Source: an uncultured Brachyspira sp.
GTDB taxonomy: Bacteria; Spirochaetota; Brachyspiria; Brachyspirales; Brachyspiraceae
Length of the DNA stretch: 44,510 nucleotides
Direction: 5' to 3'
NCBI RefSeq assembly: GCF_944390595.1
Contig: NZ_CALXRN010000118.1
Span: forward strand, 1 to 44,510
In this document: piece after piece, positions 42,078-44,455 of the stretch
Numbering within the stretch: the first letter of the stretch is position 1
How the letters are laid out: every line of letters begins with the position of its first letter
Notes under the pieces: model-generated
What the model saw: only the letters and a program-made list of their open reading frames with translations
What the model was told of the DNA's origin: nothing
Databases searched by the model: none
Translations under genes and position numbers: made by a program

Positions 42078-42827
42078 TTACCTTATAAATCTATTAAAAT
42101 CAAAAGTATATGATAAATAAGCACCTATACCAAAATAGAATCCGCTTGCTAATTGCTCTAAATACGGAGTAAAGTTAAGAGAAAGACTAGCATCGCTGTT
42201 CAATACTAAATATGCTCCCAAACCTAAATGATTTAAATAAAGAAATGCGTTATTATAAAAATCATACCCTATATGATACTCTAAATATATGCCGGCAAGG
42301 GAAAACCCAAATAAAGCACCTGGATATACACCAAATGCAGTTTTCAATCTAACAGACTCAACTACTCCGTGCGGATCATTAAAATACATTGGAACTTCAA
42401 AATTTAAAAATATGGTAAAAAAGTCGCCAAATCCTACCAAATAATGAAGCTGAGGATTAAGTCCGAATTTCTGTTTGGATGATCCTGGAAAAAGAACTTC
42501 TACAGCACCTATGAATCCATTAAAAAACTGGAATCTAGGCATTATAGAAAATTGAGGCTGACCTTCCACTCCAACACCAAGTTCTGGAATATATGTTATA
42601 GGTAAAACCCTCGCAAATATATCAAAATTTCTAAGTATACCAAAATTTATCATAATAGGACTTGATAATGTGTACTTTCCTTTAACACCTATCCTATCAT
42701 TATTAACGTAAAGAGTACCGCCAAGACGCAAAGCTCCTGTCATTCCCGTATACATTTTATACGGAAAAGAATAAAGAAATACTGACAGCAGCAACATAAA
42801 AATAAATGTAAAAACAATCTTTTTCAT
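42078..42827 (-). CDS. Predicted outer-membrane beta-barrel protein
   Basis: 249 residues. A signal peptide (KKIVFTFIFMLLLSVFLYS) is followed by a regular succession of amphipathic strands rich in Gly, Phe and Tyr, for example GALRLGGTLYV, FGILRNFDIFARVLP, HYLVGFGDFFTIFLNF and FGIGAYLSYTFDF. The layout fits a barrel of about ten to twelve strands in the outer membrane. No family was recognised. Only a weak GAAG ribosome site is seen. It lies 46 bases upstream of the BatD-like gene on the same strand. Confidence 0.65.
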   Translation of the reverse strand: MKKIVFTFIFMLLLSVFLYSFPYKMYTGMTGALRLGGTLYVNNDRIGVKGKYTLSSPIMINFGILRNFDIFARVLPITYIPELGVGVEGQPQFSIMPRFQFFNGFIGAVEVLFPGSSKQKFGLNPQLHYLVGFGDFFTIFLNFEVPMYFNDPHGVVESVRLKTAFGVYPGALFGFSLAGIYLEYHIGYDFYNNAFLYLNHLGLGAYLVLNSDASLSLNFTPYLEQLASGFYFGIGAYLSYTFDFNRFIR

Positions 42828-42982
42828 AGTATTACATCTTCTACATGTATAATAATATAATAATATGTATACTAATATAATATATTATCTAAAAAATATC
42901 AATAAATAAATATTGATTTCAAATTATAAATAATTGAATTATTTAATAGATTTTAATAATTTAAAGAATTTTAGTCCAAAAT
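42828..42982. other. AT-rich spacer between divergent genes
   Basis: First part of a 308-base non-coding gap. It is nearly all A and T and presumably holds the minus-strand promoter of the barrel gene (TATTAT-type boxes are frequent), but none stands out. The second part (42983-43135) holds the promoter and leader of the MATE gene. Confidence 0.45.
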
Positions 42983-43010
42983 TTGACTTATAAATCGTAT
43001 ATGATATAAT
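42983..43010 (+). promoter_or_regulatory. Strong promoter of the second MATE gene
   Basis: TTGACT (42983-42988), 16 bases, TATAAT (43005-43010), with an extended -10 (TGA directly before TATAAT). The start falls near 43017, at the first leader hairpin. Confidence 0.75.
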
Positions 43011-43015
43011 ACAAG

Positions 43016-43100
43016 CCAAGTTCATCGGAGGACTTATTGGAAATAAAAATACCAAAGGTTGGATAAGATGTCTAATTATTAGATTTCTTATTCAGCCTTT
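43016..43100 (+). promoter_or_regulatory. Structured leader RNA, probable riboswitch or attenuator
   Basis: The leader begins with hairpin AAGTTC-ATCGGA-GGACTT (43018-43035). A TTGG/CCAA pair follows (43037-43040 with 43052-43055) and then a terminator. The four-base elements alternate as CCAA (43016), TTGG (43037), CCAA (43052) and TTGG (43059), the last inside the terminator stem, so competing folds are possible. It stands directly before a MATE exporter gene. The class cannot be fixed from memory; the guanidine-IV (mepA motif) class is a candidate because it precedes MATE genes and acts by termination. Confidence 0.6.
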
Positions 43101-43105
43101 TTTGT
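43054..43105 (+). terminator. Intrinsic terminator in the MATE leader
   Basis: AAAGGTTGGATAAGA (43054-43068) pairs with TCTTATTCAGCCTTT (43086-43100) over 15 positions, two of them wobbles. The inner palindrome TCTAATTATTAGA extends the hairpin. A T-run ends it. It lies 31 bases before the coding start, so it can only serve as a premature terminator or as a marker of conditional expression. Confidence 0.8.
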
Positions 43106-43135
43106 TTTTAAACTTTTAATATTGGAGTTTTATTT

Positions 43136-44455
43136 ATGGATATGCTTAAAACAGACATGAAAAAGATATTTTTTAAGTATTTATCTGCTAGTTTTGGAAG
43201 TGCTTTGATAGCTGCCATTTATTCTATAGTTGATGTTGCTATGGTAGGACAATATGAGGGTGATAATGGGGCTGCCGCTTTGGCCGTATTTGCTCCAATA
43301 TGGAATGTAATATATGGTATAGGTTTACTATTTGGTATAGGAGGTTCTGTACTTTTTAGTAAGGCAAAAGGCTCTGGAGAATATGGTAAATCAAATACTT
43401 TCTTTACTGTATCATTTATTGCTTTATCAATAGTAATATTTATAATTTGGATTTTATCATTAATATTTGAAGATAATATACTTTATTTTTTTGGTGCTGA
43501 TGAAGTTTTATTAAATTTAGCTAAAAGATATTTTCTTCCTATAAAAATTATTCTTCCTTTATTTGCTTTCAGTCAGTTTTTTGCCGCATTCCTTAGAAAT
43601 GATAATGCACCTATGAAAGCCACTTTAGGAGTTATGGCAGGAGGAGTTTTCAATGTATTCGGTGACTATTTCTTTGTATTTGTATGCGACATGGGTATAT
43701 TTGGTGCTGGACTTGCAACTGCTATAGGACAAATTATTACCGCTTCTATATTGATATCGCATTTATTTAGTAAGAAAAATACTTTAAAATTTCAAAAGGT
43801 TAGAGAATTATTTTCATTGTCAAGGAATGTTGCTTCTATTGGTTTTTCTACATTCTTTATAGATATAGCAATGGGAATATTGGCTTTAATGTTTAATAGG
43901 CAAATAATGAAATATTTCGGAACATCAGCTTTGGCAGTTTATTCTGTAATAATAAATATTAATATATTAGTTCAGTCATCAGCTTATGCAATAGGACAAG
44001 CTGCTCAGCCTATAATATCAACGAATCTAGGTGCCGGTAAAATGGACAGAATAAAATCAGCAGTAAAATGCAGTATATTTTCAGCTTTGGTTCTTAGCAT
44101 AGTATATACTTTATTTACATACTTTAATACAGATTTTTTAATGAAAGCATTTATGAAGCCTTCGGAAGAAGCTTTGTCTATATCAAAAAATATTATGAGA
44201 GCTTACTTTATATCATTTCTAATACTACCTTTCAATGTATATGCAACTTACTATTTCCAAGCGATAATGAAGCCTTCATCTTCTTTTATAATTGCTGTAT
44301 TAAGAGGACTTGTAATAAGCGGTATTTTAATATTTATAATGCCTTTAATATTTGTTAAAGACAGTATATGGTATGTTATGCCTATTACAGAAGTTTTAAC
44401 TTTTATTATTGTTATGGTGTTTTTTATTAAATACAGAACTATATATTCAAAATAG
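43136..44455 (+). CDS. MATE-family efflux transporter, MepA-like
   Basis: 439 residues and about twelve membrane helices. It has SLxxAIYSIVDVAMVGQYEG-type openings, GIGGSVLFSKAKGSG, GVFNVFGDYFFVF and QAAQPIISTNLGAGKMDR, which suit the MepA branch. It would export a small cation or drug at the inner membrane. GGAG lies eight bases before the ATG at 43136. It differs clearly from the MATE gene at 17 kb. The leader with an internal terminator implies that a ligand or translation event controls its transcription. Confidence 0.93.
   Translation: MDMLKTDMKKIFFKYLSASFGSALIAAIYSIVDVAMVGQYEGDNGAAALAVFAPIWNVIYGIGLLFGIGGSVLFSKAKGSGEYGKSNTFFTVSFIALSIVIFIIWILSLIFEDNILYFFGADEVLLNLAKRYFLPIKIILPLFAFSQFFAAFLRNDNAPMKATLGVMAGGVFNVFGDYFFVFVCDMGIFGAGLATAIGQIITASILISHLFSKKNTLKFQKVRELFSLSRNVASIGFSTFFIDIAMGILALMFNRQIMKYFGTSALAVYSVIININILVQSSAYAIGQAAQPIISTNLGAGKMDRIKSAVKCSIFSALVLSIVYTLFTYFNTDFLMKAFMKPSEEALSISKNIMRAYFISFLILPFNVYATYYFQAIMKPSSSFIIAVLRGLVISGILIFIMPLIFVKDSIWYVMPITEVLTFIIVMVFFIKYRTIYSK

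Follow-up and report, generated by a model that had tools for sequence, protein, structure and literature searches.

A short RNA leader ahead of a MATE-family efflux transporter gene was examined in an uncultured Brachyspira sp. (assembly GCF_944390595.1, contig NZ_CALXRN010000118.1; the whole 44,510-nt stretch analyzed is referred to as the window). The leader, at the 5′ end of the MATE mRNA, is probably a transcription-antitermination switch and most likely belongs to a riboswitch class that Rfam lacks; we put the probability of this interpretation at about two in three. Its core is conserved across two phyla, both helices of the aptamer fold covary, that fold overlaps the terminator, and related leaders precede genes of several families. 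A sequence-only reading of the same DNA had proposed a conditional terminator ahead of the MATE gene and had offered two identities for the leader, a spirochaete guanidine-IV (mepA motif) riboswitch or a new class. The conditional terminator is supported by the two-phylum conservation and the covariation, and the second identity, a new class, is the best fit.

Predicted folds of the leader

All elements of the leader lie on the plus strand. In the predicted aptamer fold, helix 1 is formed by CAUC (43023–43026) and GAUG (43067–43070), whose pairing is also supported by covariation. Inside it lies an internal loop made of GGAG (43027–43030) and GGAUAA (43061–43066), both conserved in the alignment, and this loop is closed by the helix 2 hairpin at 43031–43060, with pairs 43031–43035/43056–43060 and 43037–43040/43052–43055. 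The latter pairs are a TTGG/CCAA set from the alternating CCAA/TTGG 4-mers listed in the sequence-only reading, which are present in the leader. When only RNA 43017–43070 is folded, a length at which the 3′ arm of the terminator has not yet been made, the two-helix aptamer is the minimum-energy fold. Folding the full leader gave −29.4 kcal/mol against −14.2 for shuffled sequences (z −5.3), and none of 200 shuffles equaled it. The full-length minimum contains the 15-bp terminator that had been predicted, spanning 43054–43103, with a stem of 15 pairs (43054–43068/43086–43100), a 6-pair upper hairpin (43070–43084), and a U-run to 43103. It also contains the hairpin with loop AUCGGA at 43019–43034, which is incompatible with the aptamer fold.

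The 5′ arm of the terminator (43054–43068) overlaps the 3′ strand of helix 2, GGAUAA, and the start of the 3′ strand of helix 1, so the predicted aptamer and terminator are mutually exclusive. The AUCGGA hairpin and the 4-mers do exist but appear to be alternative pairing partners within a single aptamer fold, not the sensor as such. A kissing-loop model, in which CAUC and GAUG would make a loop–loop contact like that of guanidine-IV, was dropped because the nested pre-terminator fold explains the same pairs together with helix 2 and the conserved loop.

Conservation and covariation across the family

A search of named genomes with only the MATE protein as query yielded 45 loci, and the core CGGAGG...GGA(U/A/C)AA was found upstream in 34 of them (8 from Brachyspira and 26 from other bacteria). 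Four further loci carry decayed leaders. In three of these (L016, L018, and L040) the CGGAG loop and the U-run are both gone, a joint loss expected if loop and terminator act as one; in the fourth (L002) the loop is gone and the terminator is retained. A covariance model, R1, built from 21 leaders outside Brachyspira (Firmicutes), detected the window leader at 34.9 bits (E 4.4e-7) and scored the eight intact Brachyspira leaders at 30.9–39.5 bits.

Covariation among collected homologous leaders, a check that had been suggested along with the original description, was found in both helices. In alignment A4, which holds 42 leaders, 78.3% of the cells in the two helices pair, compared with 68.0% after shuffling and at most 45.2% when the strands are slid, and double-change cells number 57 against 23.7 expected. 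At the third position of helix 1, 20 leaders have an A-U pair, 9 have C-G, and 1 has G-C. The rows of a further set, A5, were picked by pairing, so its covariation is not independent. An alignment-free comparison gave a similar picture: native segments beat the mean of half-swaps in 53 of 55 cases, the exceptions being L196 and L042. Among 50 family segments, the aptamer is the minimum-energy fold in strict register in 33, and in another 9, which have GG after GGAUAA, helix 1 is shifted by one base. Tandem aptamers occur in L011, L037, and L042, where the first copy has no terminator arm, an arrangement that speaks for the aptamer as a self-contained unit. L234 also seems to be tandem, with two aptamer-like copies, the second having a GCCGG loop.

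Several observations weigh against the proposal. Seven of the 45 MATE loci have no core, one of them (L043) having no upstream DNA. The leaders in A4 were partly selected with the core in view, so the invariance of the loop is partly built in by that choice. In 12 of the 42 leaders the third pair of helix 1 does not form, the helix 2 pair at columns 21/47 fails in 31, and 8 of the 50 folded segments adopt another minimum. The window aptamer is weak by itself (−7.4 kcal/mol, z −1.0, equaled by 26 of 200 shuffles); the support for its fold is comparative. A simple terminator scan reported no sites in the region. R1 also produced minus-strand matches, at 15.2 bits in the window and up to 27.7 bits elsewhere, which are attributed to the palindromic nature of the terminator.

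Distribution of the leader and downstream genes

The pattern ATCGGAGGN{8,38}GGANAAGAT matched 43 of 247 spirochaete genomes, including 18 of 26 from Brachyspira, 15 of which carry it at the locus seen in the window. Four Brachyspira genomes (G137, G139, G140, and G142) carry the pattern at a second, non-orthologous MATE locus. The leader there (L296, L297, L298, and L300) is nearly that of Lachnospiraceae L192–L194, a likeness that points to possible gene transfer. Matches were also found in 25 non-Brachyspira genomes. When 12 of these loci were fetched and scored with an aptamer model, R3, the best reached 24.2 bits and the others at most 19.6, against 51.7 for the window; given these low scores, the fetched matches were taken for chance. 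At four other Brachyspira loci (L101, L103, L105, and L106), decay has left only remnants of the terminator in place of the leader.

Model searches scored few candidates per genome, and genome counts from them are lower bounds. With 150 of 1277 candidates scored in the genome of the window itself (G000), R1 listed only a copy on another contig and missed the copy in the window. The copy that it listed, on contig C97 at 264–395 (L047), is a second leader followed by a MATE gene within this assembly and has 93% identity to the first; it may belong to another strain, the contamination of the assembly being 6.8%. In Lachnospirales, at least 46 of 295 genomes matched. The core was present in 23 of the 28 Lachnospirales loci that were looked at, and 18 of those 23 are followed by a MATE-like open reading frame (ORF), as judged by first residues. 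The genes at L180, L186, and L192 match matE above the cut-off, and the Lachnospirales exporters belong to MATE groups different from that of the window. A look at 29 model matches in Lactobacillales revealed the core in 4 (L055, L059, L060, and L061), and another family model matched at least 5 of 398 genomes.

Looser patterns matched largely by chance. One, matching 177 of 198 genomes, was set aside as mostly chance, its control being of similar size. A second matched 33 of 391 genomes, with 36 matches against 11 for a reversed control, and 5 of the 30 loci fetched from it were convincing. These were L208, with a FepA-like MATE gene that scored below cut-offs; L211 and L216, with MATE genes, and L234, with a MATE-like gene, all judged by first residues; and L218, where a loop variant GGAGAA precedes a cytidylate-kinase-like gene and then a MATE gene. 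The matches L228 and L230 lay inside long ORFs and were rejected. Patterns run on a viral collection matched 15 and 27 contigs, of which only L241 was convincing by fold and gene, so that a contig of that collection also carries a leader of the family.

R3 recovered L208, L211, L216, L241, L296–L298, and L300, all outside its training, at E 1e-7 or better, although these leaders had first been found by patterns containing the core. Some family members scored low with it (L178 at 23.0, L197 at 21.2, and L019 at 17.3 bits), and it did not find the decayed leaders L016, L018, L040, L101, L103, L105, and L106.

The genes downstream are not confined to MATE exporters. L203 precedes a Bcr/CflA-type MFS gene (177.9 bits against a cut-off of 200.9) and has a minimal form of the leader, CAUC-GGAG-GGUACA-UUA-UGUGCU-GGAUAA-GAUG, of about 33 nt. 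L204 and L205 are followed by an MFS-like gene with a weak match, L207 by a seemingly frameshifted Qac-type SMR gene (68.4 bits, cut-off 205), and L060 and L061 by a GNAT-like gene (38.6 bits, cut-off 86.4). A SAM riboswitch (RF00162) lies at 1751–1853 of L204, on the strand opposite the MFS leader. Judged from these alignments and gene assignments, the family shows the general traits of a riboswitch, namely a conserved aptamer, occurrence in several phyla, and association with non-homologous genes (MATE, MFS, SMR, and GNAT-like).

Comparison with guanidine riboswitches

At gathering scores, Rfam returned no match in the window. When 42950–43150 was searched at E≤10, 30 sub-threshold matches were returned, the best being mir-3202 (25.2 bits against a gathering score of 90, E 0.0026). 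The Rfam check called for by the sequence-only reading matched no guanidine riboswitch: guanidine-I, -II, and -III had no match in the window or, at that relaxed threshold, in 42950–43150, and no guanidine riboswitch was among the 30. The library presumably contains models for guanidine-I, -II, and -III.

Comparison with guanidine-IV relied on leaders of SMR genes in Lactobacillales, of which 30 loci were fetched. Eight of these (L146, L148, L149, L150, L158, L162, L163, and L173) have both a 5′ hairpin loop (A/G)CCG(G/A)G and a terminator loop AGG(U/C)C. As described in PMC7736828, the second loop of guanidine-IV is AGG(U/C)C, with essential G/U positions, and the L149 loop GUAGGUCCUAG fits positions G62, U63, G66, U67, A71, and G72 of that account. 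From this fit, we infer that the eight leaders are guanidine-IV riboswitches. The Rfam 15 copy reported none of the eight and apparently lacks the class, so the silence of Rfam on the window means little.

The family resembles guanidine-IV (also called GGAM-1 or the mepA motif) in being a short leader with a terminator-based ON switch ahead of MATE and SMR genes. The cores differ: guanidine-IV has ACCG(G/A)G and (U/C)AGG(U/C)C joined by a loop–loop contact, whereas the present leaders have CGGAGG and GGAUAAG facing each other in an internal loop between two helices. The window leader has neither an ACCG-type loop nor AGG(U/C)C, CGGAG and GGA(A/C/U)AAG are absent from all eight guanidine-IV leaders, and R3 found no match at E≤1 in those eight loci. 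By its sequence features, the leader is riboswitch-like but not guanidine-IV.

Alternative explanations

Gd4v, a published variant of guanidine-IV and a gut-enriched orphan riboswitch candidate (PMC9788692), is the foremost alternative, although we consider it unlikely. The hairpin that tops the window terminator (43070–43084) speaks for it. According to PMC9788692, however, Gd4v is extremely similar to guanidine-IV, with two hairpins and a pseudoknot, and R3 matched none of the eight guanidine-IV leaders; here, a nested fold explains the pairs, and the bases are unlike those of guanidine-IV. That paper places more than half of Gd4v RNAs before a transaminase gene, and no transaminase was recognized among the ORFs looked at in other taxa, most of which were judged by first residues. 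The phyla it gives for Gd4v are Actinobacteria, Bacteroidetes, and Firmicutes, without Spirochaetes, while its abstract speaks of four phyla. Compared with the published description of Gd4v, the leader is probably not that variant.

A protein, rather than a small molecule, might bind the purine-rich loop and act as an antiterminator; this seems slightly less probable still. BglG/LicT-type antiterminator hairpins are bound by protein and control sugar genes, and the layout here is similar, with a small internal-loop hairpin overlapping a terminator. The family leader, in contrast, spans two phyla and stands ahead of different gene families, and no linked regulator or sugar gene was noticed, though no search was aimed at one.

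Ribosome-mediated attenuation, in which GGAGG would serve as a Shine-Dalgarno sequence for a leader peptide UUG GAA ... GGA UAA and a stalled ribosome would block the terminator, is very improbable. Six of the 42 leaders (the window, L003, L008, L012, L015, and L183) have such an ORF whose last two codons are the conserved GGA UAA, but an ORF of this kind with at least five codons occurs in only 16 of 42, and the spacing between the Shine-Dalgarno sequence and GGAUAA is spread over the three frames (16, 14, and 12 of 42), within Brachyspira too. The leader-peptide attenuator was therefore rejected, there being no conserved short ORF or frame.

Membership of guanidine-IV itself is the least probable of all given the cores compared above, even though both systems would be ON switches working through a terminator and the published GGAM-1/guanidine-IV set (PMC7736828) includes Spirochaetes and MATE genes, so that this leader might have been counted there.

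Promoter, upstream box, and exporter gene

The near-consensus extended promoter of the sequence-only reading was borne out on the plus strand at 42983–43010 (TTGACT-16-TATAAT, with TG before the −10 element and 11 of 12 positions matching). Transcription would start near 43017, only a few bases 5′ of helix 1. This promoter was the best of seven promoter-like sites on both strands of 42800–43200; the mean for shuffled sequence was 4.9, which makes the scan weak evidence by itself and no better than chance. TTGACT and TATAAT are kept in all five Brachyspira rows of A4, and 32 of the 42 family leaders have a promoter-like pair upstream, 29 of them within 8–14 bases of the core (counts made without a shuffle control).

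Around the −35 element, at 42971–42989 on the plus strand, lies the box TTAGTCCAAAATTTGACTT, which is shared with the second Brachyspira MATE locus. It has one exact match in the window, and a match with up to three mismatches arises in 13 of 100 shuffles. Among 315 loci, several of which come from the same genomes, it is exact in 34, including L296–L298 of the second locus. Both Brachyspira MATE loci carry the form TTAGTCC(A/T)AAATTTGACTT, from which L300 departs by one change. Kept at two unrelated loci, this box is possibly a regulator site or an upstream promoter element.

Protein and family-profile searches identified the gene at 43136–44455 (plus strand) as encoding a MATE-family efflux transporter of 439 aa, with 97% identity to the B. 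alvinipulli protein (L014) over the best segment and matches to other Brachyspira. Seven families were matched, each below its curated cut-off. The exporter had been called MepA-type: the MATE assignment stands, while the MepA label is loose (83.7 bits against a curated cut-off of 850).

A proposed antitermination switch and its implications

From the folds and genes described above, we infer that the leader binds a ligand directly, which way the switch works, and that the ligand is a toxic compound carried by the exporter. In the proposed mechanism, the emerging RNA would first fold into helix 1, the asymmetric internal loop GGAG/GGAUAA, and helix 2. Binding of a small molecule in the loop would stabilize the aptamer and keep the stretch around GGUUGGAUAAG from the terminator, turning the exporter ON; without ligand, the far more stable terminator would form and expression would be OFF. 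The energies of the terminator state (−29.4 kcal/mol) and the aptamer (−7.4 kcal/mol), which refer to different stretches, argue for OFF as the default and ON with ligand bound.

The loop resembles the in vitro–selected flavin mononucleotide (FMN) aptamer, which we take to be AGGAUAU/AGAAGG, a sequence that a literature search did not confirm. On that basis, both loops contain GGAUA, GGAG takes the place of GAAG, and the strands are permuted; one core base differs, there is an extra A, and the closing pairs are others. Purine-rich loops match easily by chance, so the likeness is a lead only. The yjdF riboswitch, a class for azaaromatics, is another RNA presumed to sense toxic aromatic compounds; its fold is different and larger, and the leaders here had no Rfam match to it. 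The fuller proposal, in which a new class switches on MATE, MFS, SMR, and GNAT genes on sensing a toxic compound of planar or cationic type, with the loop as a near-copy of the FMN aptamer and possibly a flavin-like or other heteroaromatic ligand, is speculative and unlikely as a whole.

No description of an orphan riboswitch with this core was found among the titles and abstract openings of the open-access literature, and an account may exist in supplementary files or behind a journal subscription. A riboswitch-like leader ahead of a MATE gene is not necessarily guanidine-IV, and such leaders are likely to be at risk of misfiling. If the interpretation is correct, gut bacteria would have a further orphan class of riboswitch, very small in its fold and placed before several kinds of multidrug or detoxification genes, and its ligand would reveal what these poorly understood exporters carry.
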